Positions 5,741 through 58,509 of a stretch of DNA of 64,000 nt are shown one piece after another. Source of the stretch: Sedimentitalea nanhaiensis DSM 24252 (lineage in GTDB: Bacteria; Pseudomonadota; Alphaproteobacteria; Rhodobacterales; Rhodobacteraceae); assembly GCF_000473225.1 (NCBI RefSeq), contig NZ_KI421509.1:3428868-3492867 (forward strand), in the 5' to 3' direction. How positions within the stretch are numbered: position 1 is the stretch's first letter; each line of letters opens with the position of its first letter. Below the pieces are notes generated by a model. It was not told the DNA's origin, searched no databases, and saw nothing but the letters and a program-made list of their open reading frames with translations. Position numbers and translations under genes: made by a program.

Positions 5741-5745
5741 CGCGG

Positions 5746-41105: not shown

Positions 41106-41193
41106 GGAGACGTGGCCGAGTGGTCGAAGGCGCTCCCCTGCTAAGGGAGTAAACCGCAAGGTTTCGTGGGTTCGAATCCCATCGTCTCCGCCA
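41106..41193 (+). tRNA. tRNA-Ser (anticodon GCT)
   Basis: The acceptor arms GGAGACG (41106-41112) and CGTCTCC (41183-41189) pair fully, with discriminator G and an encoded CCA (41191-41193). The anticodon stem CTCCC/GGGAG holds the loop CTGCTAA, giving anticodon GCT for AGC/AGU serine codons. A long variable arm (GTAAACCGCAAGGTTTC) and the T loop GTTCGAATC fit a class II serine tRNA. Its 3' end is the attachment site of the integrated element that follows. Confidence 0.97.
41180..41193. repeat. attL core of the element
   Basis: CATCGTCTCCGCCA at the 3' end of tRNA-Ser is repeated exactly at 58496-58509. Flanking bases differ on both sides, so the shared core is 14 bp. Confidence 0.88.
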
Positions 41194-41317
41194 CCCACCA
41201 TTTTCATTGATCTGCACAGAGCAGCGGTTTAGCGTATAAACTGTTGATAAAACGCACCCATTAGCATTGATTTGCTGTTTTCGGTTTTCTTCGATTGCAT
41301 TGGGTTCTGTTCATTTC

Positions 41318-41336
41318 GTGGTATGAAAGGTGGTAT
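41318..41336. repeat. Paired arm-like sites at the left end
   Basis: GTGGTAT occurs at 41318-41324 and 41330-41336, 12 bases apart and just before the integrase start codon. The same heptamer pair with the same spacing occurs at the right end (58415-58433). They are good candidates for integrase arm-binding sites. Confidence 0.6.
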
Positions 41337-41340
41337 CTTC

Positions 41341-42531
41341 ATGGCCTATCTTGCGGGGAAACTGACCAAGAATCTCGTTCGAACGCTCGGATCAGGCCGG
41401 CATGGTGATGGTAACGGGCTGTATCTTGTTGTCGACCCGTCCGGTGCAAGACGCTGGATTGTGCGTGTCACGGTTAAAGGGCAGCGGAATCGCCAGGGAA
41501 AACCTCTGCGTACCGATTTCGGCCTCGGTGGCGCGGATGTGGTGACACTCAACGTCGCGCGAGAGCGTGCCCTAGAATACCGCCGCTTAGCCAAGCAAGG
41601 GTTGAACCCGAAATATCACCGCGGTCAGGACGTGCCTTGCTTTGAGGAAGTCGCAAGGCAAGTTCATATCGAGCGGTTGCCCACTTGGAAGAACCCGAAG
41701 CACGGGCAACAGTGGATCAACACGCTTGCCGACTATGCTTTCCCCAAGATCGGTCGGATGCCGGTTTCGGATATCGACCAACCGGAAATCTTGCAGGTAC
41801 TGTCGCCGATTTGGACCGAGAAGCATGAAACTGCGCGCAGAGTGGCGCAGCGGATGAAGGCAGTCCTCGATGTGGCGCGATCACGGGGCTATCGCGAAGG
41901 GGAAAACCCCGTGACGGTGGTGATGGATGCCAGGGTGCTGCCACGTGTGAAGGCTAAAGTGAAGCACCACAACGCGATGCGGTGGCAGGATGTACCAGCA
42001 TTCTATGCTCAGCTGTCCGAGCAAAAGGGCACAGCCGCAAGTGCGTTGATGTTTACATGTCTGACGGCTTGCCGGACTGGAGAGGTTCTAAACGCTTCGT
42101 GGGACGAATTCAGTTTTGATGATCTGCTGTGGATCATCCCACAGGATCGGACGAAGACCGGGGCGGAACATCGCGTGCCGCTTACCGATCAAATGCTTGA
42201 GATTCTCGAACCTCTGAAGGCTTTGCGATCAGAAAGCGTTTTTGAGGGGCAGCGTCGACACAAGCCATTGTCGAACATGTCGATGCTGATGTTGCTTCGG
42301 CGAATGGGCGTCGAAAACGTCACGGTACATGGGTTCAGATCCGCGTTTCGGGATTGGGCATCCGAGAAAGGCGATACTCCCCGAGAAGTCGCGGAAATGA
42401 GCCTTGGGCACAAAGTAGGGACCGAAGTTGAACGGGCCTATGCGCGGTCCGACTTGCTCGACCGAAGACGCGAACTGTTGCGGCGTTGGTCCGAGTTCGT
42501 GTGTAGTAAGCTGGAGAATTCCAATGACTGA
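41341..42531 (+). CDS. int: Tyrosine-recombinase integrase
   Basis: The 396-residue integrase has an N-terminal arm-binding domain of the DUF4102 kind (GDGNGLYLVVDPSGARRWIVRV), a core-binding segment at about residues 100-200, and the catalytic domain. The catalytic set is visible: R245 in CRTGEVLNASWDE, H330 and R333 in HGFRSAFRDWAS, H357 in LGHKVG and Y367 in ERAYARSD. The ATG at 41341 is used because family similarity begins there. It stands 148 bases from the tRNA-Ser gene and should recombine the 14-bp attachment cores. Its stop overlaps the start of the next gene by 8 bases. Confidence 0.95.
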   Translation: MAYLAGKLTKNLVRTLGSGRHGDGNGLYLVVDPSGARRWIVRVTVKGQRNRQGKPLRTDFGLGGADVVTLNVARERALEYRRLAKQGLNPKYHRGQDVPCFEEVARQVHIERLPTWKNPKHGQQWINTLADYAFPKIGRMPVSDIDQPEILQVLSPIWTEKHETARRVAQRMKAVLDVARSRGYREGENPVTVVMDARVLPRVKAKVKHHNAMRWQDVPAFYAQLSEQKGTAASALMFTCLTACRTGEVLNASWDEFSFDDLLWIIPQDRTKTGAEHRVPLTDQMLEILEPLKALRSESVFEGQRRHKPLSNMSMLMLLRRMGVENVTVHGFRSAFRDWASEKGDTPREVAEMSLGHKVGTEVERAYARSDLLDRRRELLRRWSEFVCSKLENSND

Positions 42532-43192
42532 CTTCGTCAGAACTCCAGCAAAGGTATTCGGTTTAAGCTTCGTAACACCGGAAGACGCAGCGTGGATGGC
42601 TGTGCGGGCATTGATCCTGTCTTGTAGCAGTGGTTCTGATTTCCAAACCCTTTATCTTGGCCTCCTCTCTCTCAAGTCAAGAGATGCCGACGAAACCGGA
42701 GATGCTGAAGAACAATTTGGGAAGTCGCAGTCTTTAACAAGAAGGGAGATGGAATTACTGGTTCGCTTCGCCGTCGGGCAATTTGCAGCAGGCAGCAAGA
42801 AGATGCGTTTGGATTTGCTGCAGATGAACAGGGTTCTGAGCGCAATGTTTATCAAGAAGATGCCGAAAACCAAAGCTCTGGAATACCTGCAACAAGAAAG
42901 CCAGCAAGCCGCAAAGCTCCTGCGCGACGAGGGGGATGCTGAGCGAGCATCCCTCTTTTACCAGGGGAAAGGTGCTCGGACTCTTGGAGAGCTTTGGAAT
43001 AAATATGAGGTGGTTCTTCCATATGTATACGCAGAAACGCTCCGACAGCAGGTTGCCGCCAGAGAAATCTCAGGGAACGTCCAATTCGAAGACCTGAAGT
43101 ATATGCCTGAGATCTTCCTTTACCAGATTGGCAAGATTTCCAAGTCTCGACCGCTCAAAATTGACGCTCTCTATCATCTTGATTTTGAATGA
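42524..43192 (+). CDS. Unrecognised protein next to the integrase
   Basis: The 222-residue protein has no signal peptide or membrane helix. It looks mostly helical, with a lysine- and glutamine-rich middle (about residues 105-150). I cannot place it in a family. Its ATG overlaps the last codons of the integrase gene, so it is co-translated and probably belongs to the element's core rather than its cargo. A role in excision or its control is possible but not shown by sequence. Confidence 0.7.
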   Translation: MTDFVRTPAKVFGLSFVTPEDAAWMAVRALILSCSSGSDFQTLYLGLLSLKSRDADETGDAEEQFGKSQSLTRREMELLVRFAVGQFAAGSKKMRLDLLQMNRVLSAMFIKKMPKTKALEYLQQESQQAAKLLRDEGDAERASLFYQGKGARTLGELWNKYEVVLPYVYAETLRQQVAAREISGNVQFEDLKYMPEIFLYQIGKISKSRPLKIDALYHLDFE

Positions 43193-43287
43193 TTTGTTTT
43201 TGAATTTCTTATTCAGTAGGTCGCTGAATGCAAACGATAAATGCTGAACCGCAATGATGACTTGCAAAACAAGGAGCGGTGAAGCGA

Positions 43288-43485
43288 ATGAAAGTCTTTG
43301 AAGATGAACGTGTTTATGATGACGCTGATCCTGAACTGGATCTGATCGCAACAAGGAACAAACGTGCGCAATGGCGCCATCGTCGCGTTGGGCCGGCTTT
43401 CGTCAAATTTGGGCGGCGAGTGAAATACCTGGGTACAGATCTGAACGCGTTTGTTGAAGAAAATCGCGTCTCTCCGGCTGGTTGA
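43288..43485 (+). CDS. AlpA/excisionase-like small DNA-binding protein
   Basis: The 65-residue protein has the ending typical of helix-turn-helix 17 / AlpA proteins: AQWRHRRVGPAFVKFGRRVKYLGTDLNAFVEENRV. In these, a tryptophan-containing recognition helix is followed by a beta wing and the DLxAFxxxN helix. The N-terminal part, which normally carries the first helix, is short and acidic here. Such proteins direct excision or activate integrase genes. AAGGAG lies 11 bases before the ATG at 43288. An in-frame GTG 9 bases earlier is too close to that site. Confidence 0.75.
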   Translation: MKVFEDERVYDDADPELDLIATRNKRAQWRHRRVGPAFVKFGRRVKYLGTDLNAFVEENRVSPAG

Positions 43486-43499
43486 GTTTGGGTGCGACA

Positions 43500-44288
43500 A
43501 TGGCGGTAAAACACTACGCGCAGATCGAGTTTGATCTATTCTCGGACCCAAAGTTTAGAGGCCTTTCCTCAAACGATGTACGGTTCATCTATCTGACGGC
43601 GCATTGCTCAAAGCTCAGCAATTACTTAGGGATCTTTCGCTATCCAATCGAGATTTGGAGCTACGATTCCAACGTCAAGCCAGCAGAAATTCAAGCAGCT
43701 CTTTCAGAGCTAGAAGCAAAAGGCTTGGTTGAATATGATCAAGACACTCAAACATTGAGACTGATTGGCTGGTTTTACACCTTGAATGGACCCCGCAATG
43801 GGAACCAAATGAAGGGGCACATCAAGAGCTTCCTAGGCCTGTCTCGTTGTGATCCAGAAATGCTGTGCCGTTCGGTCGCCGAATTTACCGTTTCGAGTTT
43901 CTCGGCTGCCTCTCTTTGGGAAAACGACAGCCCGGAACATCGCAAGGTTAATGACGCCTTCAGAACTTTCTTGAAATATTTGCATTTCAAGTTTGGGACC
44001 GGCTTCGGTGAAATCCTTGAGAATGAGATCAACGCGTCGGGGAAGGATACATTCGGCGCTATCCAGGCCGTATTTCACATGCTTTCCAGCGGTGGCCCAA
44101 GCACGGTGGAACCCTTTCGAAAGGGTTTCGAAACCGTTTCGAAACAAGAGATGACAGGAGAGGAGAATATAAAAAATCAAAAGAAAACAAACGTCGTCCA
44201 TGATGGAAAGCACATCGTGAGCGCTTCGCCTCTATCGGAAACAATGAATAGTCGATTGGCTATGGAAGCGAGGGGATCGCAGAAATGA
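43500..44288 (+). CDS. Putative replication initiator of the element
   Basis: The 262-residue protein starts with a winged-helix-like region (about residues 5-115): IEFDLFSDPKFRGLSSNDVRFIYLTAHCSKLSNYLGIFRYP, then a two-helix segment and the LVEYDQDTQTLRLIGWF wing. This resembles phage replisome-organiser and DnaD-like domains, though I cannot name a family. A less conserved C-terminal part follows. The gene contains three phased palindromes and an A-rich stretch near its 3' end (44112-44190), the layout of origins that lie inside their own initiator gene, as in phage lambda O. The start is the ATG at 43500; a TTG six codons earlier is possible. Its TGA overlaps the next small ORF. Confidence 0.55.
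   Translation: MAVKHYAQIEFDLFSDPKFRGLSSNDVRFIYLTAHCSKLSNYLGIFRYPIEIWSYDSNVKPAEIQAALSELEAKGLVEYDQDTQTLRLIGWFYTLNGPRNGNQMKGHIKSFLGLSRCDPEMLCRSVAEFTVSSFSAASLWENDSPEHRKVNDAFRTFLKYLHFKFGTGFGEILENEINASGKDTFGAIQAVFHMLSSGGPSTVEPFRKGFETVSKQEMTGEENIKNQKKTNVVHDGKHIVSASPLSETMNSRLAMEARGSQK
44112..44190. other. Candidate replication origin: phased palindromic iterons plus A-rich tract
   Basis: TTTCGAAA occurs three times, centred at 44118.5, 44129.5 and 44140.5, an exact 11-base period. Each copy is part of a longer palindrome: 14 bp at 44112-44125, 10 bp at 44125-44134 and 10 bp at 44136-44145. An A-rich stretch follows at about 44165-44190. The block lies inside the reading frame of the putative initiator. 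Iterons beside an AT-rich unwinding element suggest an origin; this is inference from layout. Confidence 0.5.
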
Positions 44289-44380
44289 AGCGGTTGCGAA
44301 TGGCAAAGAGCAAATCGGCCAATGTCCGACATGGTTGTCCGCCGCTTGGTGAGGCGTTGTTGGTAGGGGGGCCGCGATGA
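44285..44380 (+). CDS. Possible 31-residue peptide
   Basis: A 32-codon frame whose ATG overlaps the stop of the initiator gene (ATGA) and whose TGA overlaps the ATG of the following exported-protein gene. The peptide is basic at its N-terminus (MKRLRMAKSKSANVRHG). Overlaps at both ends suggest it is translated, at least as a coupler. No function can be read from it. Confidence 0.4.
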   Translation: MKRLRMAKSKSANVRHGCPPLGEALLVGGPR

Positions 44381-44871
44381 AACTCCTTCAAGCCGCGGCT
44401 TTGTTGCTGCTGGCAACAACCCACCAAATTGTAGCTGAAGGGTTGGCGAGCCTTTCCAAACCGGAGTTGAAAACCGCCGTGCGAGATGCGGTTGAAGCTG
44501 GTGATCATGAAAACCTGATGGCAGCGATGGAGGAGATCCGCCGCCGCAAAATGTGGGTTTTCCAGCCTACAGCATCGACATGCGTCATGAACGTGCCAGA
44601 GTTGCCGGTTTTCTCCCAGCATTTTGCGAACCGGATGCACGTCGAACAAGCCTATCAACTAGCCGCGCAAAAGCGCTTTCTTGAGGAAGGCAGCTGTCCT
44701 TGCATGTTCGATTGGTCTTTCTCCTCCTTCGTTCTCGGGCATTTGGGAAAATCGCCTAACGAACTTACGCAGGATGATGTCATTCAGCTACGCGATTGGA
44801 GATCGCAGGAGCTCTCAGACATTCTCGGCCGCTATACCGAGTTCCGCAACGCAAACTGCCAAGGAGATTGA
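44377..44871 (+). CDS. Unrecognised exported protein upstream of the VirB6-like gene
   Basis: The 164-residue protein has a clear signal peptide (LLQAAALLLLATTHQIVA) and a mature helical domain with four cysteines (in STCVMN, GSCPCMF and NANCQGD). No lipobox is present. It is followed by the VirB6/TrbL-like gene two bases after its stop, so the two are likely co-translated. The position suggests a periplasmic partner of a secretion channel, but no family was recognised. Confidence 0.7.
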   Translation: MKLLQAAALLLLATTHQIVAEGLASLSKPELKTAVRDAVEAGDHENLMAAMEEIRRRKMWVFQPTASTCVMNVPELPVFSQHFANRMHVEQAYQLAAQKRFLEEGSCPCMFDWSFSSFVLGHLGKSPNELTQDDVIQLRDWRSQELSDILGRYTEFRNANCQGD

Positions 44872-44873
44872 TC

Positions 44874-45878
44874 GTGGATTACATAGCATCCCTCATGGCG
44901 TTTGTTGACACGGTCGTCGCCTCGGTCGGTCAAAGCGCCTACGATCAAGTAGGCGCGGCGCTGATGCCTGCCTTCCAGCTTTCAGCGGTTCTTGTCATCG
45001 CGATCCTCGGAATAAATCTGATGATCCAGGCGGTTCCGATGTCGTTGGCAAATGGCGTGAATCTGATCATCCGCCTTTCAGTGGTCATGGTATTTCTGCC
45101 TTCTTGGGCGAACTTTTCTTTGGTCTATATGGCTTTGACGCAGGCACCAGAACAAGTCGGCGGTGTGGTGCTGTCAACGCTCGGATATAGTCAGGATATT
45201 GCCGGTCTCTATCCGGAGTTGGACCGCCTCCTTCAGGAAAGTCTCGATCTCGGGCAGGCCGTTGTTGATGGCAGCGGTTATATTTCCGGTGCCCTCGCCA
45301 GCATCGCTATCGTGGGCGTGACGATGATAACGCTGGTAGTGGCCGTCGGGATACTGATCATCGCCAAGACAGTTCTTGCAGTCATGATCGTGGTCGCGCC
45401 GGTCGCAATCGCTGCCACCTTGTTCAAGCAATCTGCACCACTTTTCGAGGGGTGGATTAAGGTCTCGCTGGGGGCTGCGATGGTATCGTTGTTGGTCGCC
45501 GCCGCGTTGGGGGTTGTGATCGCTTTCGAAAATCAACTTTCGCCAGGCAATAGCGAAAATGTGGCAGCTATCGGAGATGCGCTCGGGTTTGTGTTCGCCA
45601 TGGGGCTTGGGCTGCTATTGCTTCGCCAGGTGCCGGGATGGGCCGAAGCACTGGCCCAAACGCGCATTGAGATCGGAGCCGTCGCCCGCAATGCTGAGCG
45701 TATGGGCACCGGAGCAGCGAGACTCAGCTCTGGTGCGGTTCGGGATGTCGGGGCTGGTATGAGGGGAGCAGCGGAAGCGGGAATTGGCCGAGAACTACCA
45801 CAGGCGTCTTCAGCCGCGCGGCAAGTCGGCTACAATACCGTGGATAAGGTGCGGTATCTCGCGTCACGAATGAGGTAG
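44874..45878 (+). CDS. TrbL/VirB6-like membrane protein
   Basis: The 334-residue protein has at least six hydrophobic helices (about residues 30-55, 60-80, 135-165, 165-185, 200-220 and 235-255). A soluble C-terminal tail rich in alanine, glycine and arginine follows. The QSAYDQVGAALMPAFQLSAVLVIAILGINLMIQ opening and the long paired helices in the middle are typical of TrbL/VirB6 inner-membrane channel subunits of type IV secretion systems. AAGGAG lies 7 bases before the GTG at 44874, which I take as the start. No other recognisable type IV secretion gene is nearby, so it is an orphan. Confidence 0.75.
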   Translation: MDYIASLMAFVDTVVASVGQSAYDQVGAALMPAFQLSAVLVIAILGINLMIQAVPMSLANGVNLIIRLSVVMVFLPSWANFSLVYMALTQAPEQVGGVVLSTLGYSQDIAGLYPELDRLLQESLDLGQAVVDGSGYISGALASIAIVGVTMITLVVAVGILIIAKTVLAVMIVVAPVAIAATLFKQSAPLFEGWIKVSLGAAMVSLLVAAALGVVIAFENQLSPGNSENVAAIGDALGFVFAMGLGLLLLRQVPGWAEALAQTRIEIGAVARNAERMGTGAARLSSGAVRDVGAGMRGAAEAGIGRELPQASSAARQVGYNTVDKVRYLASRMR

Positions 45879-45883
45879 TGATC

Positions 45884-46288
45884 ATGAGTTGGAAAGTTGT
45901 GTTGGCGGCGGTGAACGATCAGCTCGAAATACTCGATTTCTCGCGCTCTCCTTGGGCGCTGTTCATAGCCGCCATTATTGCCGTCGCCGTAGGTTTTGCG
46001 TATTCGACCATGCACGGGGTCTCGATCTTCGAAGATGGTGACTCATACGTCAAAGCATCGGTAAAGGTCGCCTTTGTCCTCGCCTTCTTGTTCGCGCTTA
46101 TTTCGTTTTTTCGTGTCGTCTGCAGCTGCGTCGTTCCGTCAGAATCTGAATTAACGAATGCATACGAGGATGAGCAAGCGCATAGATTTGTTCGAAAATA
46201 TGCAGCCGCCGAGCTGGGTGTACGAGCCACCGCCAGAGGCGCGAGTGGGTGGGCGGAGATTTGGCAAGGACGGGCTGACCATCTTTGA
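45884..46288 (+). CDS. Small membrane protein after the VirB6-like gene
   Basis: A 134-residue frame with two membrane helices (about residues 22-41 and 62-83). GAGG lies 8 bases before the ATG at 45884. The first 90 residues look like real coding sequence. The last 45 are an odd mix rich in arginine and alanine, and here a second frame, shifted by +1, has much better codon choice. Either the two genes overlap deeply or a frameshift has split one longer gene. No family was recognised. Confidence 0.55.
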   Translation: MSWKVVLAAVNDQLEILDFSRSPWALFIAAIIAVAVGFAYSTMHGVSIFEDGDSYVKASVKVAFVLAFLFALISFFRVVCSCVVPSESELTNAYEDEQAHRFVRKYAAAELGVRATARGASGWAEIWQGRADHL

Positions 46289-46340
46289 TATTTATGACCA
46301 ATGCTTGCTGACCGCGGCAGCATTCCAGGGCATGGAGTAG
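46170..46340 (+). CDS. Small soluble protein in the overlapping frame
   Basis: A 56-residue frame (RIDLFENMQPPSWVYEPPPEA, then GKDGLTIFDIYDQCLLTAAAFQ) with GC-rich third positions. It overlaps the last 119 bases of the preceding membrane-protein frame. An earlier in-frame ATG is at 46158. No proper ribosome site is seen, so it may be translated by frameshifting from the upstream frame or be the broken end of it. Function unknown. Confidence 0.5.
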   Translation: MSKRIDLFENMQPPSWVYEPPPEARVGGRRFGKDGLTIFDIYDQCLLTAAAFQGME

Positions 46341-46347
46341 CGTTGTT

Positions 46348-46551
46348 ATGACAAAGCGTGAGGGAAGAATGGCCGATGATCAATGCAAAGCAAATATGGG
46401 CAGCGTCCAAGCCAAACAGCGAAAGCTCCTGCGAGACCAACAATTGCGCGGAACACCTCTTGTTCAGCGCCGTTCAGATGGCGTTTGGGTGCGGCGCAGC
46501 CATGATGGCAGAGAGGTGGAGCTTTCCTACTCGGACCGCGATGACGAGTGA
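46348..46551 (+). CDS. Unrecognised basic small protein
   Basis: A 67-residue hydrophilic, highly charged frame (QRKLLRDQQLRGTPLVQRRSDGVWVRR, ending YSDRDDE). GGAG lies about 10 bases upstream of the ATG. It ends just before the structured region that precedes the relaxase gene. It may be a small DNA-binding accessory protein for mobilization, judged only from charge and place. Confidence 0.5.
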   Translation: MTKREGRMADDQCKANMGSVQAKQRKLLRDQQLRGTPLVQRRSDGVWVRRSHDGREVELSYSDRDDE

Positions 46552-46632
46552 ACCAACCTGATAATTAGGGCCGTTTGATGTTTGAATTTCTGGGTCTTCT
46601 TGACACCTCAGGATGTCGGTAATTGCTTCAAA

Positions 46633-46680
46633 CCGGAAAACCGGAAAACCGGAAAACCGGAAAACCGGAAAACCGGAAAA
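46633..46680. repeat. Six perfect tandem copies of CCGGAAAA
   Basis: The octamer CCGGAAAA repeats six times without error, followed by two decayed units (GCGGAAAT, GCGGAAAG). It lies about 125 bases upstream of the relaxase start. Octamer arrays change length easily by slippage. Confidence 0.95.
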
Positions 46681-46702
46681 GCGGAAATGCGGAAAGAGTG
46701 GA

Positions 46703-46780
46703 TTTAAATGTCCAAGTACCCGACCCGATCGGGTCGAACGACAATTGCGAAGCAAATTGTCTAGTGAGTGGACATTTAAA
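46703..46780. other. Nested inverted repeats upstream of the relaxase gene (oriT candidate)
   Basis: Three structures are packed in 78 bases. An outer pair of 12-bp arms, TTTAAATGTCCA (46703-46714) and its complement (46769-46780), encloses a perfect 16-bp palindrome CGACCCGATCGGGTCG (46721-46736) and an imperfect stem at 46741-46760. The relaxase gene starts 25 bases later. Relaxase recognition sites of MobV-type systems are inverted repeats just upstream of mob, so this is the best oriT candidate. Confidence 0.55.
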
Positions 46781-46804
46781 AAAATATCGATTGAGGACCT
46801 CACT

Positions 46805-47950
46805 ATGAACAATGAAATCGTACCAGAGCTCGAACCGCTGAAATCCCGCTTCGCTCCAGGTTCATCTGATACGCGTGGGCCAAGAGTCCGTCCGCCGAAG
46901 GGTCAAAGGCGGTATGCGATCCTTCGCGTGAAAAAGATCAAGACAGCCGGCGATTTGGCGGCGGCGGCGCGCCACAATTTTCGCGAGCGAGATGCCGACA
47001 ATGCCGACCCGAACCGTAAGGATAGCAATCAGGTTCTTTTGGGAGCTACTGGATCTGAAGAGATAGCAGAGCTGTGGAATGCTCGGGCACCCGAAAAGGT
47101 GCGAAAGAACGCAGTGCGGGCGTTAGAGTATGTGGTAACAGCCTCGCCAGAAGCGATGGAACGGATTGGGGCCGAGAATTCAAATGCCTATCTCGAACAA
47201 GCCCTGGATTGGTTGAAAGAGCGTCACGGTGAGGAAAACATCCTCTCGGCTGTGATCCACGATGACGAAACGACACCTCACCTTCAGGCCCTGATTATTC
47301 CGATCGATCACCGTGGGCGGTTGAATGCACGTGGATTGATCGGAGGCAAAGGGCAGCTGTCTGCCATGCAGACGGAGTTTGCTACGCGGGTGGGGGCAAA
47401 CTTCGGATTGGAGCGCGGGTTGGAACGTTCCGGCGCAACCCATCAAAGCATCAAGAAATACTATGCTCAGTTGGCGGCTTTGGATCAAATCTCCGTTGAG
47501 CTGCCAGAGCGTTCGGTCAGTGTAGGCTCAGATTTGCCCGAAAAAGATGAGGATTGGCGCGAGCGTGCTTCAGCTGAGGCGAGTGAAGCCCTTCGCCAAA
47601 CAATCGCGGTCTCGCTGGCCGAACGGGGGGAGTTGTCTCGCGACATCGACTATTTGCAGGCGCAGCTAATGGAAGCGCGCACGGAAGTGCAATTCAATCG
47701 CGAAATTGCAGATCGTTCGAGCCTCGGGGTTGCAGCTCTTTGCGCCCTCGATGGCATTCTCCGTAGCCCGAAGGAGGATCAAAAGGGTCTTATCGACAGG
47801 TTTGTCAGTGAGACGAAACGATCATGGAGTAAGTTACCGGACGCTGCCAAGGAAACGATTCAGACGTCTCTTGTTCAAGATTTTTCGCTGGAACCAATAG
47901 AAATGGGTAAAAAACGGGGCCGAAGTAGAGAAACTGATTTGGACCTTTAG
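46805..47950 (+). CDS. MobV/Pre-type relaxase
   Basis: The 381-residue protein has the Pre/Mob layout. An N-terminal AILRVKKIKTAGDLAAAARHNFRE segment precedes a spacer with NADPNRKDSN. The metal motif is HDDETTPHLQ at residues 152-161, matching the H-x-D-E-x-T-P-H-x-H pattern except for Q in the last place. KKYYAQL follows near residue 220, then a coiled-coil-like C-terminus. It should nick the element at oriT and lead the DNA to a helper's channel. The ATG at 46805 has GAGGACC ahead. The frame is open further upstream through the octamer array. Confidence 0.85.
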   Translation: MNNEIVPELEPLKSRFAPGSSDTRGPRVRPPKGQRRYAILRVKKIKTAGDLAAAARHNFRERDADNADPNRKDSNQVLLGATGSEEIAELWNARAPEKVRKNAVRALEYVVTASPEAMERIGAENSNAYLEQALDWLKERHGEENILSAVIHDDETTPHLQALIIPIDHRGRLNARGLIGGKGQLSAMQTEFATRVGANFGLERGLERSGATHQSIKKYYAQLAALDQISVELPERSVSVGSDLPEKDEDWRERASAEASEALRQTIAVSLAERGELSRDIDYLQAQLMEARTEVQFNREIADRSSLGVAALCALDGILRSPKEDQKGLIDRFVSETKRSWSKLPDAAKETIQTSLVQDFSLEPIEMGKKRGRSRETDLDL

Positions 47951-48072
47951 CCATCCTGGCTCAAGCTGGCCGAGCGGAGCCCTGCATAGCTCAGGCGAGG
48001 CCAGCTAAAGCCGTCAGACGACAGTCGTCACCAGACGAAATTTCTTGCCTGTCGCGTCAAAATTTGCCGAAA

Positions 48073-48160
48073 TTCGGTGCTTCGGTGCTTCGGTGCTTCG
48101 GTGCTTCGGTGCTTCGGTGCTTCGGTGCTTCGGTGCTTCGGTGCTTCGGTGCTTCGGTGC
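48073..48160. repeat. Eleven perfect tandem copies of TTCGGTGC
   Basis: The octamer TTCGGTGC repeats eleven times without error in the 329-base gap between the relaxase gene (ends 47950) and the next small gene (starts 48280). Just upstream, AAATTTGCCGAAATTCGGT looks like the seed of the array; a similar sequence without expansion lies at about 48519-48539. The rest of the gap holds short inverted repeats (for example AGCTGGCC at 47964-47971 with its complement at 47999-48006) and no gene. Confidence 0.95.
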
Positions 48161-48279
48161 CTCTCAGAGGGCGTTGCCCGCGTTCGGTTTTGTGGGCATG
48201 ACCAATCGGGGCAGCGATTTTATTGCTCCTCGGTGGTTTTCAGCCTAAATTGTGAATGAACTTCATCGTGAGTGAGTAA

Positions 48280-48444
48280 ATGAGCGAAGAACGGTTTAAA
48301 CACCTGATGTTGCGCCTCGATCAAATCGAGAGGAACATGCTTAAGAAGTCAGATGTTTGCCAATCGGTTCTGACGGCTCAAGTCTTTATGCTCACGATTG
48401 TTGTTGGTGTGGTCGTCTTGAACTCGATGATCGGATTCGGTTGA
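48280..48444 (+). CDS. Small single-helix membrane protein
   Basis: A 54-residue frame with a charged amphipathic N-terminal half (SEERFKHLMLRLDQIERNML) and one membrane helix (about residues 34-49, VFMLTIVVGVVVLNSM). It lies between the octamer array and the restriction operon. The composition is convincingly protein-like, but no clear ribosome site is seen. The function is unknown; small helix proteins of this kind can be accessory factors of mobile elements. Confidence 0.5.
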   Translation: MSEERFKHLMLRLDQIERNMLKKSDVCQSVLTAQVFMLTIVVGVVVLNSMIGFG

Positions 48445-48608
48445 CATGGCTGCGGTCGAGGCAAGCCAAGGCTATGTGCTGGTGGGCGGCAGCTGATGAA
48501 GTAAACTGCCTGTCGCACCCAATTTGCCCAAATTCGGTAATTCAATGCGCGAGTGTACCTCTTGAAGTATGTTGGGAGAGTTGTCGCGTTGAAGACGAAG
48601 GAAATACG

Positions 48609-48806
48609 ATGACTGGTTCAAACCCTTTGCGTAGCAGGCACCATCCAGATTCTCATGAGCTGAACGACTGGCACCACTTTGGCCCCAAGAATTCAGAAAT
48701 CGCCGATCTGGTTTACCGCCTGGCTTATGAGGAGGATATGCGCCTGGCTGACATAGAACAATTGATGGTGGACGCGCTGAAGGAACGGTTATCCCCGCGC
48801 GAGTAA
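48609..48806 (+). CDS. Unrecognised 65-residue protein
   Basis: A short acidic protein with a helical C-terminal half (EIADLVYRLAYEEDMRLADIEQLMVDALKERL). AAGGAA precedes the ATG. The helical part resembles small regulatory or antitoxin-like folds, but nothing specific enough to name it. It stands 176 bases before hsdR in the same direction and could be a controller of the restriction operon. Confidence 0.5.
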   Translation: MTGSNPLRSRHHPDSHELNDWHHFGPKNSEIADLVYRLAYEEDMRLADIEQLMVDALKERLSPRE

Positions 48807-48982
48807 AGAGGGTGCAAAGTTTTACCAGGGGGCGAGTTCGGTGGGTTGTTTCTGCGTGTAAGCCAATATGCTCAGGGCGACACAACAATCTGGTTCAGTA
48901 GTTTTCCATTCTGTTCATTGTTTTTCATTTTCAATCATCTGCTTACACTTTAAGGTTGCGGTGAAAAGTAGGTGAGAACGAA

Positions 48983-51739: not shown

Positions 51740-53223
51740 GTGAATTACCGAGTGGGTGGGCCGAAACCAAATTCTCCGAGATTCTTGGGCACCACAGCGG
51801 GAACTCAAAACTCATCAAGGGCAAGCTGCATAGCTCTCCCAGTGAGGGCAGATACCAAGGCTTCAGTGCATCTGGGGCCGACGTTTGGTTGGACCACTAC
51901 GAGCAAGAGGGCACTGCGATCATCATCTCTGCCGTTGGTGCACGTTGCGGAAAGTGTTTTCTCGCAAAAGGTAAATGGACGGCTATCGCAAATACACATG
52001 TGGTCAAGCCTGCCAGTGGCGAGCTAAATGCCAAGTTCTTCTGGTATCTCCTGAACAACGAAGAGTTTTGGGTCAAGGGTGGAAGCGGTCAGCCCTTTGT
52101 AAAAACAAAAGCGTCTTTCGATCGCCCATTTTTGCTTCCTCCGTCATTTGAACAACGCCGCATCGTTGAGAAGATCGAGCAGCTTTTTGACTTGCTTGAC
52201 AAGGGCGAGGAGAGCTTGCGGGCGGCGCGGGACAAGGCGGGGCTGTACCGGCAATCCCTGCTCAAACACGCCTTCGAGGGCCACCTGACCGCCGACTGGC
52301 GCGCCGCCAACCCCGACAAACTCGAAGACCCCGAAACCCTCCTGACCCGCATCCAGGAAGAACGCGACGCCCGCTACAAACAAGCCCTCGACGACTGGCA
52401 AACCGCCCTGACCAAATGGCGCGCTGATGGGGAAGAGGGGAAAAAGCCCGCGAAGCCGAAGCGTCCACCGGCGACTGAAAGAGTTGACCCGCCGGACAAT
52501 TATCACACTTGCGAGTCTTGGATTTGGGTTTCAGTGCTTTCGCTCCTTCGCGCTCCATTGATCAATGGGCGGTCAGTTAAAGACCGAGCAGATGGGTTTC
52601 CCGTTCTGCGATTGACAGCGCTAAAAGGTGAAAAACTTGATCTTTCGGAATATAAGAATGGTGCGTGGAACCGATCAGAGGCTTTGCCATACTTAGTTGA
52701 AGAGGGCGATTTCTACGTCGCCCGCGGGAACGGAAGCAAGAAGCTAGTTGGACTTGGCTCTCTCGCGAGCAACGTGACGTTTGAGACGGCCTTCCCCGAC
52801 ACCATGATACGATTGCGATTGGACCTTGGCGTGGTGGCGTCTGGGTACTTCGGGAGGGTGTGGAATTCACGCATACTCAGGGACCAAATCGAGGAAGCTG
52901 CAAGAACCACAGCAGGAATCTACAAGATTAATCAAGATCATATCTCGGGATTTGTTTTTCCGCTCTGCTCGCCTGCTGAACAAGCCGAAATCGTCAGCCG
53001 CCTCGAAGCCAAACTCTCCACCCTCGACGCGCTTGAGGCGGACATCGACCGCCAGCTCGCACGCTCGCGCGCACTGCGACAGTCCATCCTCAAACGCGCT
53101 TTTGAGGGCAAACTCGTCCCCCAAGACCCCACCGACGAACCCGCATCAGCTCTCCTCGCCCGCATCAAGGCCGAGCGGGATGCAGCCCCAAAGCCTAAGC
53201 GCAAACGAAAGACGCCCGCATGA
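51736..53223 (+). CDS. hsdS: Type I restriction specificity subunit
   Basis: The 495-residue protein has two target-recognition domains (about residues 1-130 and 255-405). Each is followed by a conserved helical spacer. The spacers are alike: IVEKIEQLFDLLDKGEESLRAARDKAGLYRQSLLKHAFEGHLTADW and IVSRLEAKLSTLDALEADIDRQLARSRALRQSILKRAFEGKLVPQD. HsdS sets the DNA sequence recognised by both the methylase and the nuclease. A charged insert with KPKRPP follows the first spacer. It overlaps hsdR and the GIY-YIG gene by ATGA at each end. The target sequence cannot be read. Confidence 0.93.
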   Translation: MSELPSGWAETKFSEILGHHSGNSKLIKGKLHSSPSEGRYQGFSASGADVWLDHYEQEGTAIIISAVGARCGKCFLAKGKWTAIANTHVVKPASGELNAKFFWYLLNNEEFWVKGGSGQPFVKTKASFDRPFLLPPSFEQRRIVEKIEQLFDLLDKGEESLRAARDKAGLYRQSLLKHAFEGHLTADWRAANPDKLEDPETLLTRIQEERDARYKQALDDWQTALTKWRADGEEGKKPAKPKRPPATERVDPPDNYHTCESWIWVSVLSLLRAPLINGRSVKDRADGFPVLRLTALKGEKLDLSEYKNGAWNRSEALPYLVEEGDFYVARGNGSKKLVGLGSLASNVTFETAFPDTMIRLRLDLGVVASGYFGRVWNSRILRDQIEEAARTTAGIYKINQDHISGFVFPLCSPAEQAEIVSRLEAKLSTLDALEADIDRQLARSRALRQSILKRAFEGKLVPQDPTDEPASALLARIKAERDAAPKPKRKRKTPA

Positions 53224-54137
53224 CATCGCAAGGACGCTCAATCGAACTCTTCTTCCATGACGGCGACCCCGATGGAATGACGACGGCAACAATCCCATTT
53301 CAGTGGACAGGGCATGTTCTGGTCACAAACCGAACGCAGGTTTTCGACGCACTTAAGGAGCCGGAGGCGTCGCAGCCTGGCATCTACCTTTTGGTCGGCG
53401 AAACCGAAAACGGCCTGACGCTTTACGTGGGAGAGACGGACGAAATCCGCACAAGGATCAATCAGCACATCAAGGATGCGTCCAAGGACTGGTGGGAGCG
53501 GGCTATCTTTGTGACGGCGCAAGGCGAGCCACTCAACAAGGCGCATGCGCGCTATCTTGAAAGCCGGATTTATGGGCTGGCATCGCGGATCTCAAAGGTT
53601 GCACTGGCAAACAATAAGGCTCCTACTGAAAGCCCGCTCAGCAAAGCAGCCCTCGCACATATGGAGGACTTTCTGAAGAATTTGCGGCTGGTTTTGCCTG
53701 CATTGAGGTTTGATTTCCTGACGGAACAAACCAAGCCGAAGGTTGCCACCACGTCGAGTGAGCCTGAAAATCAGCCCGTGTTCTTTGTGCTTTCGACTAA
53801 GGAAGTAGCCGCTCGAGCGAGGCAAGAGGGTGGAGATTTTGTCGTTGAGGAAGGTTCGGACGCACGTAGCAAGTGGGTCGGATCAACAAGCAAGGATTCA
53901 ACATATGGCCGGCTCTATGAATCGCTCGTGTCGCAAGGCGTGATCGGGGATCAAGACGGGGCTAGGAAATTTCTGCAAAGCTATGCCTTTAACAGCGTGA
54001 GTGCTGCCGCATCGGTTGTGACAGGGCGACCAACGTCAGGCACAGGTGCTTGGCTGCTGGAGAGTGATCAAACGAAGAACTATGGCGACTATGAAGCCGC
54101 GAAGGCAGAGCAGACAGAGGAAGAGGCAACAACATGA
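53220..54137 (+). CDS. GIY-YIG and DUF4357 protein inside the hsd operon
   Basis: The 305-residue protein has a GIY-YIG nuclease domain at about residues 50-150. GIY is at 54-56, YVG at 69-71, then GETDEIRTRINQH, and the metal-binding glutamate candidate is E114 in ARYLESRIY. A linker and a C-terminal DUF4357-type domain follow at about 215-285 (SKWVGSTSKDSTYGRLYESLVSQGVI). It sits between hsdS and hsdM with ATGA overlaps on both sides, so it is made with the restriction subunits. It may nick or cut DNA, or modulate the complex. This is inference from domain and place. Confidence 0.85.
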   Translation: MTSQGRSIELFFHDGDPDGMTTATIPFQWTGHVLVTNRTQVFDALKEPEASQPGIYLLVGETENGLTLYVGETDEIRTRINQHIKDASKDWWERAIFVTAQGEPLNKAHARYLESRIYGLASRISKVALANNKAPTESPLSKAALAHMEDFLKNLRLVLPALRFDFLTEQTKPKVATTSSEPENQPVFFVLSTKEVAARARQEGGDFVVEEGSDARSKWVGSTSKDSTYGRLYESLVSQGVIGDQDGARKFLQSYAFNSVSAAASVVTGRPTSGTGAWLLESDQTKNYGDYEAAKAEQTEEEATT

Positions 54138-55624
54138 ATACAGCCCCCATTGTTTCAAAGGTCTGGAGCTTCTGCACTACTCTGCGTGACGACGGCGTGG
54201 GGTATGGCGACTATCTGGAACAGCTGACTTATCTGATCTTTCTCAAGATGGCTGATGAGTATTCCAAGCCACCACACAATCGGAGCGTCGGTGTGCCTGA
54301 GGGTTTTGACTGGGCATCGCTGAAGGCAAAGCGCGGCGCGGAGCTTGAGGTTCACTACGTCGATCTGCTTCGAACGCTTGGTACTAAGCCGGGGATGTTG
54401 GGACAGATCTTCACGAAGTCGCAGAACAAGATTCAGGATCCGGCGAAGCTCTACCGGTTAATCGACATGGTGGATGGCGTCGATTGGGTGATGCTTGGCG
54501 CTGACGTGAAGGGGGATGTCTACGAAGGTCTTCTGGAGAAGAACGCCGAGGATACAAAATCTGGTGCAGGCCAGTACTTCACGCCTCGTTCCCTGATTTC
54601 AGCCATGGTGGAATGCCTGGCGCCAGAACCGGGCAAGACGATTGCGGACCCAGCTTGCGGAACCGGTGGCTTTTTTCTCGCGGCATACGACTATCTAAAC
54701 GACCCAAGACACGGTGGTCTGGACCGCGATCAGAAAGCGTTCCTTAAACACGATACCTTTTTCGGGAACGAGATCGTCGCCAATACGCGCCGGATGTGCC
54801 TGATGAACATGATGCTGCACAACATTGGCGAGATTGACGGCGAGAGCTGCGTGTCGCCCAATGATGCGCTTGTGACGGCCTCACCGCAGACTTTCGATTA
54901 CGTCCTGGCCAACCCGCCTTTTGGCAAGAAAAGTTCAATGAGCTTTACCAATGACGAGGGTGAGCAAGAAACGGATGACCTGACCTACAACCGGCAGGAT
55001 TTCTGGGCGACCACATCGAACAAGCAGTTGAACTTTGTCCAACATATACGATCGATGCTGAAGAGTAACGGTCGCGCGGCTGTCGTGGTGCCAGACAACG
55101 TGCTGTTCGAGGGAGGCGCAGGTGAGACGGTCCGGCGCAAGTTGCTGCAATCCACCGATCTGCACACCATTTTACGCTTGCCGACAGGTATCTTCTATGC
55201 GCAAGGCGTGAAGGCGAATGTCTTGTTCTTCGACAATAAGCCAGCGAGCCCAGATGCCCAGACGAAAGAGGTCTGGTTCTACGACTACCGTACGAACGTG
55301 CATCACACGTTGAAGAAAAAGCCGATGACCTATGAGCACCTGGCGGACTTCGTGGCGTGTTTCAAAGCTGGCGAGACGCACCAACGGGCCGAAACCTGGT
55401 CTGAAGATGCGCCAGACGGCCGCTGGCGGAAGTATCATCTGAAAGAGCTGCTCGACCGGGACAAGGCCAGCCTTGACGTGTTCTGGCTGAAGGACAAGAG
55501 CCTGACGGACATGGAGAATTTGCCTGCACCTGACATACTGGCTGAGGAGATTATTGAAGAGCTTGAGGCAGGTTTGGAGAGCTTTCGCAGCGTACAAGCA
55601 GAGTTGACTGGAGCAGAAAGGTAA
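54134..55624 (+). CDS. hsdM: Type I restriction modification methylase
   Basis: The 496-residue adenine-N6 methyltransferase pairs with HsdS to protect the host DNA. The N-terminal HsdM helical domain (WSFCTTLRDDGVGYGDYLEQLTYLIFLKMADE) is complete. Motif I DPACGTGGF is at residues 172-180 and motif IV NPPF at 260-263. Its start overlaps the GIY-YIG gene. The order R-S-accessory-M differs from the common R-M-S. After its stop a 35-base gap precedes the last gene of the operon; a 22-codon frame fills part of that gap, probably by chance. Confidence 0.95.
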   Translation: MNTAPIVSKVWSFCTTLRDDGVGYGDYLEQLTYLIFLKMADEYSKPPHNRSVGVPEGFDWASLKAKRGAELEVHYVDLLRTLGTKPGMLGQIFTKSQNKIQDPAKLYRLIDMVDGVDWVMLGADVKGDVYEGLLEKNAEDTKSGAGQYFTPRSLISAMVECLAPEPGKTIADPACGTGGFFLAAYDYLNDPRHGGLDRDQKAFLKHDTFFGNEIVANTRRMCLMNMMLHNIGEIDGESCVSPNDALVTASPQTFDYVLANPPFGKKSSMSFTNDEGEQETDDLTYNRQDFWATTSNKQLNFVQHIRSMLKSNGRAAVVVPDNVLFEGGAGETVRRKLLQSTDLHTILRLPTGIFYAQGVKANVLFFDNKPASPDAQTKEVWFYDYRTNVHHTLKKKPMTYEHLADFVACFKAGETHQRAETWSEDAPDGRWRKYHLKELLDRDKASLDVFWLKDKSLTDMENLPAPDILAEEIIEELEAGLESFRSVQAELTGAER

Positions 55625-55658
55625 ATGGCCTTCCCCGCGGGCTGGAGATTGATTGAGA

Positions 55659-58385
55659 ATGGAAGTGACTTACCAACACGATTCAAGTCTTGAAACGCTG
55701 ATCGCTCATACGGCAACGCCCAAGGGCATAGTTGAAGCCCTCGGAAAGCCGAGCGGAAGCCGGTTCTATCGCTGCGCGTTTCAAGTGAATCCGCATCAGT
55801 ACGGCCAGCGTCACGCCAAAGACGCAGGGTTTTCGTCAGAAGACGATTACAACGATGCGGTGGCTAAGGCCTGCCGGGAAAATGGTATCCAAGTCGTTGC
55901 AGTTACTGACCATTTCCGCTTCGACAGTTCCGAGAAACTAGCCGAGCGCCTCCGGGCGGATGGCATTGTCGTCTTTCCAGGGTTCGAGGCCAACTCTTCA
56001 GAGGGCGTGCACATACTCTGCCTGTTTCCACCAGAAACCACAGGATCGGAGATGAACACGCACATTGGCGCATGTGAAGTCCGCGATCTAAAGGCAGAGT
56101 CCCCAATATCGAACAAAACTTGCGAGCAGTTGATGCGGCTCGTCCAAGAGTTGGGAGGAATCGCAATCTCTGCACATGTCACGTCAGCTGCTGGTATGCT
56201 CAAAAACCTGAGCGGTCAAACCCGGATGAATGTATGGAAGTCTGATTATCATCTTGCGGCGGCCATTCCGGGGCCGGTTGAAGATGTGCCGACCGACTAC
56301 AGCCAAATCTGTAAGAATAAGGACGCACAGCATAAGCGCAGCCGTGCTATCGCGTTCGTTAACGCATCAGATGTTTCGAAGCCTGACGATTTCAAGAAAG
56401 ATAGCGCAACGTGTCTTGTTAAGATGACGGACGTGTCTATAGAGGGCTTGAAGCAAGCGTTTCTCGACGCAGAGGGGCGTATATTGCTTAACTCGGACGG
56501 CGTTCCTTCCGACTATACACGCCTGGTTGCCTTGTCATGGGATCGCGGGTTGCTGTCAGAGCAATCGGTCGCCCTGAACGCCGGTCTGAACGTCCTGATC
56601 GGCGGCCGCGGTGCGGGCAAATCTACTGTAGTCGAGAGCATCCGCTATGCCTTTGGACTGGAGCCGAAAGGCAAGGACGCATCGGCTACGCACAAGGCCA
56701 TGATGAAGGAGTTGATGGGGCAGAAAGCCAGTGTCGCTGTCTTGTTGCACTCGCCACGACCCTCTCCCGGCTACTACCTTGTTGAGCGCGTTTATGGCCA
56801 AGACCCGCGCGTAAAGGATCAGAACGGCGACATCATCAATGACCTCAAGCCGATAGATTTGGTTCCTGGACTTGAGGTCTATGGTCAGCACGAAATCTCT
56901 GAGCTGACACGGGACAAAGCCAAGCTCGCCGAATTACTCAAGCGGTTTGTCGGCGACGATGATCGAGTGAGCGTCGCGATGGACAACCTACGTTCACGTC
57001 TTAGAGAGTCTCGGGGCGGGATTGCCGGCAAACGTCAGAAGATCGAGGAGTTGAATGAAGCGTTGGCCGCACTGCCGGGCCTGCGCGAAAAACTAAAGAG
57101 GTTCCAGGCCACAAACCTTAAGGAGCATGCTGAGGAAAAAACAGCGGTTCAGGCTGAAGCTAGATTGATCGAAAAAGTGGCGGGCATGGTAGCGGAGCTT
57201 GAGGCCCAGTCGAAGAAGCTGCGACCAACGCAAGATACGGCAGAACCTGTTTTGCCCAATGAAACCGATCAAAAGCTTCCGCATCGTTCGACTTTGGAAC
57301 CACTTCAGAGGATCGTTCAGGGCATAAACGACGCCCTACGCTCAGCATCAGATACACTTACTACAGCGCACAAAGCCACTGAGGCAGACCTTGCAGCGGT
57401 AAAGACGAGCTGGGAGCCATTGCGGGATGCGGCGAACAAGCGCTTCGAAGACCTGAAGGCCCTGCTTGCAGAAGAAGGGCATAATCCCGACGAATATGTC
57501 AGTCTCGATGATCAGGTGGCCCGTCTTGAACCAAAACAGGCGGAAAAGCAGGGGCTTGAAGGCGAACTGGCGTCGCTTCGCCAAGCAAGGCAGGGGATTA
57601 TAGATGAATGGGAAAAGGCGGATACTCAAGCCTACACAGAGTTGGAGAAGGCAGCGAAGCGGGTCTCGAAGAAACTCAAAGGCACCGTCAAGGCTGTAAT
57701 TCAACCCAGTTCGACAATCGAACCGCTGCGGGAGGTCTTCCGCAGCCACGTTGATGGCAACATAAGTCAAGCATTTGGCAAGCTCGAAGAGGTTGAGGCA
57801 CTATCTCTGTCAAAGCTTGCAGAGAGAATCCGGGACGGGGCCCAAGCTCTGATGACCGAGTATGGATTCACAGAAACCAGCGCGAGGAAGATCGCTGATG
57901 CTGGCGAGGCGCTTGCACTGGAGGTGGAGGAATGCCGGATACCCCCAGAAGCCCTGATCGAACTCAACGTTGGCCGAGATGGTAGCGACAACTGGAAAAG
58001 GCTCGAAAACTTGTCGGCTGGGCAAAAAGCAACTGCGGTCCTTCTGTTGCTGCTACTGGACGCCGATGCGCCCTTGATTATCGACCAACCGGAAGATGAT
58101 TTGGACAACCAGTTCATTGCAGGTCGGGTCGTCCCGATCATGCGTACTGGAAAAAAGCGACGGCAGTTCATCTTTTCCAGCCACAACCCAAACATACCAG
58201 TTCTTGGCGATGCCGATCAGATCATCGGGCTGACACCAACAGTTGAGGATGCCAGTGATCGCACTAAAGTTTTCGATGATGACTGTGGCTCGATTGACAA
58301 GGTTTCGGTCCAGCAGCTCATCAAGGACTTGCTCGAGGGGGGCGAGCAGGCGTTCACAACCCGTCGAACCAAGTATGGTTTCTGA
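55659..58385 (+). CDS. PHP-domain SMC-like ATPase (TrlF-like)
   Basis: The 908-residue protein combines an N-terminal PHP-type phosphoesterase-like domain with an SMC/Rad50-like ATPase. PHP-type residues are seen as TDH (83-85), E110 in FPGFEANSSEGVHIL, H118 and H173 in ISAHV. The canonical first H-x-H motif is not clear. Walker A GGRGAGKST is at 315-323. A long coiled-coil region runs from about 430 to 700. The ABC signature LSAGQ is at 785-789 and Walker B LIIDQPEDD at 806-814, followed by FIFSSHNPN. I take the ATG at 55659; a TTG two codons earlier is possible. It closes the restriction operon and is probably a DNA-end-sensing defence factor. Confidence 0.82.
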   Translation: MEVTYQHDSSLETLIAHTATPKGIVEALGKPSGSRFYRCAFQVNPHQYGQRHAKDAGFSSEDDYNDAVAKACRENGIQVVAVTDHFRFDSSEKLAERLRADGIVVFPGFEANSSEGVHILCLFPPETTGSEMNTHIGACEVRDLKAESPISNKTCEQLMRLVQELGGIAISAHVTSAAGMLKNLSGQTRMNVWKSDYHLAAAIPGPVEDVPTDYSQICKNKDAQHKRSRAIAFVNASDVSKPDDFKKDSATCLVKMTDVSIEGLKQAFLDAEGRILLNSDGVPSDYTRLVALSWDRGLLSEQSVALNAGLNVLIGGRGAGKSTVVESIRYAFGLEPKGKDASATHKAMMKELMGQKASVAVLLHSPRPSPGYYLVERVYGQDPRVKDQNGDIINDLKPIDLVPGLEVYGQHEISELTRDKAKLAELLKRFVGDDDRVSVAMDNLRSRLRESRGGIAGKRQKIEELNEALAALPGLREKLKRFQATNLKEHAEEKTAVQAEARLIEKVAGMVAELEAQSKKLRPTQDTAEPVLPNETDQKLPHRSTLEPLQRIVQGINDALRSASDTLTTAHKATEADLAAVKTSWEPLRDAANKRFEDLKALLAEEGHNPDEYVSLDDQVARLEPKQAEKQGLEGELASLRQARQGIIDEWEKADTQAYTELEKAAKRVSKKLKGTVKAVIQPSSTIEPLREVFRSHVDGNISQAFGKLEEVEALSLSKLAERIRDGAQALMTEYGFTETSARKIADAGEALALEVEECRIPPEALIELNVGRDGSDNWKRLENLSAGQKATAVLLLLLLDADAPLIIDQPEDDLDNQFIAGRVVPIMRTGKKRRQFIFSSHNPNIPVLGDADQIIGLTPTVEDASDRTKVFDDDCGSIDKVSVQQLIKDLLEGGEQAFTTRRTKYGF

Positions 58386-58414
58386 GCTTGGCTGCACAGA
58401 ACTCAGTACGTCTA

Positions 58415-58447
58415 GTGGTATAAGTTGTGGTATGGGCTTATTGGTAT
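58415..58447. repeat. Paired arm-like sites at the right end
   Basis: GTGGTAT at 58415-58421 and 58427-58433 repeats the left-end pair with the same 12-base spacing. A near copy, TTGGTAT, is at 58441-58447. The group lies 49-81 bases inside attR. Confidence 0.6.
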
Positions 58448-58495
58448 GTTGAAGATACCTTTTGAATCAAATATTTAACTAAAAAATGCGTAAGA

Positions 58496-58509
58496 CATCG
58501 TCTCCGCCA
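58496..58509. repeat. attR core of the element
   Basis: CATCGTCTCCGCCA is an exact copy of the last 14 bases of the tRNA-Ser gene with its CCA (41180-41193). It marks the right boundary of the element. Confidence 0.88.

Follow-up and report, generated by a model that had tools for sequence, protein, structure and literature searches.

Two groups of described islands are closest to the locus reported here. The SGI1 family integrates at trmE (PMC8409611). In SGI1 itself, the island-encoded TraN, TraH and TraG replace subunits of the helper, and experiments on TraG showed that its replacement increased SGI1 transfer and overcame IncC entry exclusion (PMC5389848). GIsul2 and the IncP islands carry TrbJ-TrbK-TrbL, to which the IncP islands add their own MobP relaxase, and subunit replacement has been proposed for both (PMC5704250).

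We analyzed a window of 64,000 nucleotides of Sedimentitalea nanhaiensis DSM 24252 (contig NZ_KI421509.1, positions 3,428,868 to 3,492,867); coordinates below refer to this window unless another locus is named. It holds a 17.3-kb element (41180-58509) which, like SGI1, carries a VirB6 homologue (TraG in SGI1). In contrast, SGI1 as described has no relaxase, belongs with an F-type pore and also encodes TraN and TraH (PMC5389848), whereas the present element has a relaxase and lies at a tRNA-Ser gene. The IncP islands of Burkholderia glumae and Brucella suis are described with a tyrosine integrase, a Rep protein, their own relaxase and, as the sole pore components, VirB6/TrbL and an exclusion-like protein (PMC5704250). 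This element has a comparable set, in which the small Cys-rich protein is by position a candidate for the exclusion-like one. They differ from it in their MobP relaxase, guaA site and TrbJ/TrbK/TrbL set, against a MOBV relaxase, a tRNA-Ser site, another VirB6 lineage and no VirB5 here (PMC5704250). The element, with its relaxase, VirB6/TrbL, small neighboring protein and no full pore, has the composition of the non-canonical integrative and mobilizable elements (IMEs) of the IncP-island class. It belongs to neither the IncP-island family nor the SGI1 family; we place it in the functional class of GIsul2 and the IncP islands and outside the families themselves because of its MOBV relaxase, tRNA-Ser site and different VirB6 lineage. 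In the literature searched, which did not extend to most subscription papers, we found no comparable island described from Rhodobacterales.

Results

Borders and insertion site

The tRNA-Ser(GCT) gene at 41106-41193 (+ strand; ARAGORN; Rfam tRNA, 60.8 bits) supplies the attachment site with its 3′ end. As the initial annotation of this DNA had stated, its last 14 bases, CATCGTCTCCGCCA (attL copy, 41180-41193), recur at 58496-58509 (attR copy, + strand). The two copies, both on the same strand, are the only ones in the whole genome (4,948,550 bases, 7 contigs), where the repeat read backwards does not occur. The base composition shifts at both ends of the element, with a G+C content of 53.7% inside compared with 60.8% in the left flank and 62.9% in the right flank, that is, 7-9 points lower inside.

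An empty allele joined exactly at the repeat, which the initial annotation had proposed as a check, was not seen among the relatives searched. Neither the left and right flanks of the window compared with 61 genomes (its own included), nor the right flank and tRNA of the related element in Aliiroseovarius sp. Z3 compared with 21 genomes of that genus (Z3 included), gave such a junction. One genome (G436) carries after the same tRNA about 15 kb of metabolic-looking genes, followed by transporter genes that are also present in Z3. The first gene of this stretch encodes a DAO-type oxidoreductase and the remaining genes were judged by eye. Because G436 has other genes there, the tRNA site can be without this element, although the G436 arrangement does not amount to a joined empty allele. 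At seven loci in several other genomes, tRNA-Ser GCT or GGA is also followed by a related integrase (identity 54-91%, for some over a short stretch). By this sequence comparison, tRNA-Ser GCT/GGA appears to be a recurrent island site.

A sister element in Aliiroseovarius sp. Z3

A search of the genome contigs with the relaxase of the window returned one locus, in Aliiroseovarius sp. Z3, with a tRNA-Ser(GCT) 5.4 kb upstream. The element there occupies parts of NZ_JAFMZK010000005.1 and of a second contig, measures about 17.8 kb as assembled and has the same tRNA-Ser(GCT) gene and the same end repeat. The first contig ends and the second starts inside an array of TTCGGTGC, where we infer that the two join. 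In the grouping of genomes used, the window belongs to genus g1 and Z3 to genus g397, G461 being taken as identical to G435, a genome of Z3's genus. The stretches shared by the two elements are 82-94% identical in DNA, and the shared genes have the same order and 82-100% amino acid identity.

On the left side, the homology covers the tRNA gene, which is conserved in itself, and ends 44 bases before it; inside the element, the sequence directly after the left repeat is identical in the two. On the right side, the homology ends at the repeat, past which Z3 has amino-acid ABC transporter-like genes (by eye); nothing in the Z3 DNA to the right of the repeat matches the window. Within Z3's genus, all 7 loci compared match G436 on the left side of the tRNA, and the matching ends after the tRNA. 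Moreover, the right repeat copy agrees in sequence with the tRNA variant of its host (CATCG in the window, CTTCG in Z3). Both att copies were seen to match the T-stem base of the host tRNA, A in the window (41181 and 58497) and T in Z3, the pairing being judged by eye. The Z3 element, at the same tRNA gene and with the same end repeat, provides the best support for the predicted borders, and thus for the earlier proposal of an IME with these boundaries. Old chromosomal synteny, which had been named as the finding that would contradict this proposal, is disfavored because the element is shared with Z3 while the chromosome past it is not.

Gene content

Fifteen + strand ORFs of the element were scanned against Pfam, NCBIfam, PADLOC and PHROG. 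Clear family matches were obtained for the integrase, the MOBV relaxase, TrbL/VirB6, HsdR, HsdS, the GIY-YIG/DUF4357 protein, HsdM and TrlF. All genes with a family match lie on the + strand, and a Pfam scan of the ten longest - strand ORFs selected returned nothing at E 0.01, in agreement with the single reading direction reported before.

The tyrosine integrase (41341-42531; Arm-DNA-bind_3, Phage_int_M and Phage_integrase) retains the R-T-G-E and H-G-F-R motifs; its ORF opens at 41272, with ATGs at 41323 and 41341. It is 95% identical to its Z3 counterpart over 407 aa. The next gene (42524-43192) has no convincing family, and the gene at this place in Z3 is strongly diverged (32.5% over 40 aa, E 4e-4). 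It is followed by an AlpA/excisionase-like HTH protein (43279-43485; 91% identity to Z3) and a replication-initiator/DnaD-like protein (43482-44288). The latter matched PHROG families of unknown function (4e-15), replication initiation (6e-6) and DnaD-like proteins (1e-5). It has no significant match in Z3, where the gene in its place is also initiator-like (PHROG, E 3e-16). Of the integrase, AlpA-like factor and initiator named in the initial annotation, the integrase is thus clear and the initiator has PHROG support, while the AlpA-like assignment has an HTH_17 match below the cut-off (E 0.003). Each of the two elements has an initiator-like gene, though not of the same kind, which makes it plausible that they replicate once excised. 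In a viral collection, three relatives of the integrase were found, and three peptide-pattern scans of that collection returned no relatives of the relaxase or of VirB6.

The block before the cargo had been described as mobilization genes. The relaxase is indeed there, but the block also holds an orphan VirB6 that was overlooked at the time and that makes a different mechanism likely. In this block a small Cys-rich protein (44377-44871) and TrbL/VirB6 (44877-45878) are followed by a small hydrophobic protein (45878-46288; 82% identity to Z3), which has no relatives in the plasmid collection, and a small protein (46348-46551) of no assigned family (84% in Z3). The MOBV relaxase is encoded at 46805-47950. 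Two 8-bp tandem arrays were observed to flank the relaxase gene, one of AAACCGGA (46630-46693) and one of 11 units of TTCGGTGC (48073-48160), the latter being the array that splits the Z3 assembly. They may be iterons or slippage products. No coupling protein was matched among the scanned ORFs, and tblastn with VirB4, 5, 8, 9, 10 and 11 of one plasmid gave no match inside the element, a single VirB11 match at 10250 lying outside. The earlier description of a relaxase without a coupling protein or full type IV secretion system (T4SS) therefore stands.

The defense cargo, likewise borne out, consists of HsdR (48983-51739), HsdS (51736-53223), a GIY-YIG + DUF4357 protein (53220-54137; PADLOC candidate PDC-S14), HsdM (54134-55624) and a TrlF-family PHP/SMC-like ATPase (55653-58385; NCBIfam TrlF, NF045780, 499.7 bits against a cut-off of 350). 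By family match, HsdR, HsdS and HsdM form a putatively complete type I RM gene set. A literature search on TrlF yielded nothing useful. HsdR, HsdM and the GIY-YIG protein are 98%, 97% and 100% identical to those of Z3. HsdS is only 48% identical overall because two stretches, the recognition domains, do not match; its centre has 92% DNA identity. The last gene of Z3 encodes a different TrlF member (25% identity; 570.4 bits for NCBIfam TrlF). Cargo has been swapped between the two elements.

Relaxase and candidate oriT

The relaxase matched Mob_Pre (E 6e-41) and NCBIfam MobV (160.5 bits, cut-off 100), and has relatives of solved structure (PDB 4lvi and others, E 4e-17). Its ORF opens at 46613. 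Identity to the Z3 protein is 93% over 381 aa from the likely start and 87% for the longer ORF. The closest relatives in the plasmid collection are relaxases of Paracoccus MOBV mobilizable plasmids such as pMOS2 (45-55% over the matched part), and an HxDExxPH motif is common to the window relaxase and the four Paracoccus MobV proteins compared. These plasmids also have the same oriT-like motif as the element; unlike the integrated element, they are plasmids of 2.7-47 kb.

We read 46703-46780 as a candidate oriT. It contains a perfect 12-bp inverted repeat (46703-46714/46769-46780) and the motif AAATTGTCTAGTGAGTGGACAT (46754-46775), which lies before the relaxase start and runs into the right arm of the repeat. 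With few changes, the motif is present upstream of mobV in all four plasmid loci read with sufficient upstream DNA; that of pWKS1 was too short to judge. It had no match in 100 shuffles of the window. Of 72,556 plasmid records, 12 were matched in a search with 51 bases; with E-values between 0.07 and 0.9, these matches are weak by themselves. All nine Paracoccus matches among them lie 20-109 bases upstream of a mobV match on the same strand; the remaining three are two from Pseudomonas and one from Paramagnetospirillum. The pMV158 nick motif was also tried and rejected, its only match, with one mismatch at 43507, being at chance level.

With an integrase and att ends at a specific site, its own relaxase, a candidate oriT and no complete T4SS, the element has the makeup of an IME, and its classification as an IME in the 3′ end of tRNA-Ser(GCT) is supported by these sequence features.

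The orphan VirB6 and its small neighbor

The VirB6 gene at 44877-45878 (PF04610, E 1.7e-26; ORF opening at 44796) is preceded by a gene for a small Cys-rich protein that has a signal-like N terminus and resembles those encoded immediately before virB6 in complete virB operons. The small protein matched no family in Pfam, NCBIfam or PHROG. In three annotated Rhodobacterales plasmids the order is VirB5, small Cys-rich protein, VirB6, VirB8, VirB9, VirB10 and VirB11; in the window and Z3 elements only the small protein and VirB6 are present, and no other virB gene was detected by tblastn. At E 1e-10, a search for the VirB6 family gave matches in 84 of 394 genomes. VirB5, VirB8 and VirB9 lie beside VirB6 in all 29 other loci examined (30 were returned, one being the window's own). 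In Z3's genus, 9 of 21 genomes gave VirB6 matches (12 matches). Four of these contexts were read, and VirB6 is an orphan in Z3 contig 7 and in G435 and part of a complete set in G440 contig 11 and Z3 contig 3.

When 390 genomes of the order were searched with a profile of the small protein, nine gave a match. The pair is an orphan in the window and in a genome with a locus that starts identically to that of G435, and VirB5 and VirB8 adjoin it in the other seven. Among 22 more distant virB loci (1,319 ORFs), five have an ORF that matched the profile (E 1e-4 to 0.004) and whose end lies 0-106 bases ahead of VirB6, the host contig-7 and Z3 contig-3 systems being two of them; the profile had no match in the other 17. 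By its position the small protein is a candidate for an exclusion role; its fold model was unusable (pLDDT 47). In IncN, eex occupies the place between VirB5 and VirB6. TrbK of RP4 also sits between VirB5- and VirB6-type genes, like the small protein (PMC5704250).

The orphan locus of G435 (L205) is an otherwise different island. Its tyrosine integrase is a different one, and it further encodes an initiator-like protein with HTH_36, a NikA/MobC-like protein and a relaxase resembling MobA/VirD2 (below the cut-off, E 0.002); the small protein (123 aa) and VirB6 come directly after the relaxase and are followed by other cargo. Neither the integrase nor the relaxase of the window has a match in this locus. 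The small proteins of the window and G435 are 40% identical, compared with 27-31% to the plasmid ones. In a tree of 39 VirB6 sequences, at least three of them duplicates, the orphan VirB6s of the window, Z3 and G435 grouped together with a support of 0.93, two of the three sequences being nearly identical. As border repeats, only unconvincing matches of 11 and 13 bases were found in L205. The surrounding region (G435 contig 12, about 195-215 kb) was seen to have low G+C, with an integrase-like gene close to either end (that at 195042 judged by eye), and is possibly a composite island.

Selection on the shared genes was estimated as dN/dS by Nei-Gojobori counts of window and Z3 pairs. VirB6, 99% identical between the two elements (98.6% for the TrbL ORF), has 2 nonsynonymous and 32 synonymous differences, and its dN/dS of 0.02 is the lowest among the seven backbone genes compared. 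The small Cys-rich protein (87% identity) gave 0.29, the hydrophobic protein 0.16, the small ORF 0.40, the AlpA-like protein 0.05 and MobV 0.20; the integrase gave 0.12 with its diverged C-terminus and 0.04 without it. Given this low dN/dS, the orphan VirB6 has therefore been kept as a working protein. The substitution counts show that VirB6, with its putative operon partner, has evolved under purifying selection. For the cargo, values of 0.03 (HsdR), 0.05 (HsdM) and 0 (GIY-YIG) were obtained. The GIY-YIG/DUF4357 gene (53220-54137; 5502-6416 of the Z3 locus L089) showed 27 synonymous and 0 nonsynonymous differences and is more constrained than HsdM or HsdR.

Candidate helper systems

Contig 7 of the host genome encodes VirB4, 5, 8, 9, 10 and 11, with VirB6 placed behind VirB11. 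A coupling protein of the VirD4 type and a MobA/VirD2-like relaxase are encoded there as well. Z3 also carries a VirB set. The VirB6 of the element gave no tblastn match to the contig-7 VirB6 at E 1e-3 and branches far from it in the tree, so the contig-7 system may not accept the island protein. On the same contig (L198, 1766-3256), a relative of the small protein (E 1e-4) and VirB6 were observed together after VirB11, as if the pair had moved as a unit.

Discussion

The orphan VirB6 pair is the most informative feature of this well-bounded IME. By analogy with SGI1 and the IncP islands, the likely role of VirB6 is to replace the VirB6 of a helper, and from the same analogy we infer a takeover of the pore. 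We assign a probability of about 0.6 to the reading that the element is a mobilizable IME whose VirB6 and small protein replace those of the helper in the helper pore. In the proposed mechanism, the integrase and the AlpA-like factor would excise the element as a circle, which the initiator may maintain. The MOBV relaxase would nick near 46754-46775, and the coupling protein and VirB system of a helper plasmid would carry the element. The island VirB6 and the small upstream protein would enter the helper pore in place of the helper's own, and the swapped pore would favor the island, evade the helper's entry exclusion, or both. The RM and TrlF cargo would benefit the host.

A simpler reading, which we consider unlikely, is that the element is a plain canonical IME for which relaxase and oriT are enough, the VirB6 pair being a passenger that remained after a conjugative element degraded. 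Canonical IMEs that have a relaxase but lack T4SS genes are known (PMC5704250), and decay of a conjugative ancestor could have given rise to the present element. However, a passenger does not fit well with VirB6 having the lowest dN/dS of the backbone genes, with the lack of any other detected virB gene in the element, or with the same pair being kept in the unrelated island of G435.

Improbable, in our view, is that the pair protects the cell by blocking incoming conjugative plasmids, through exclusion or fertility inhibition, as part of the defense cargo. The island does carry defense genes, and in full operons the small protein lies between VirB5 and VirB6, the place of TrbK in RP4 (PMC5704250). 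Yet the pair is located in the mobilization block before the relaxase and not with the cargo, and in G435 it directly follows the relaxase. A larger island with misplaced borders and older remnants to the right, for which one could point to the short ORF of no known family opening the right flank (58590) and to the missing empty site, is very hard to credit, as the Z3 homology ends at the same repeat on the right and G+C goes up at 58.5 kb.

Replacement of helper subunits by the island pair thus remains our preferred reading, and it can be tentatively extended. In this extension, which we regard as rather less than an even bet, Rhodobacterales IMEs would share a VirB6 lineage of their own which, with the Cys-rich protein, forms an island-specific two-gene cassette that rewires the pore. 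The cassette would move among islands whose integrases and relaxases are unrelated and would replace the plasmid VirB6, giving the island priority and a way past entry exclusion. If true, this would be an independent virB-type counterpart of the SGI1 TraG strategy, and the Cys-rich protein would be identified as what determines exclusion in these systems or as the partner of their VirB6.

The element offers a compact system, with candidate helpers, for testing pore remodeling, and phage-defense genes ride on such an island and are exchanged at fixed positions. Because a separate VirB6 lineage has been kept in two otherwise unrelated Rhodobacterales islands, these results suggest that small islands have repeatedly come to exploit conjugative plasmids through the takeover of a single pore subunit.
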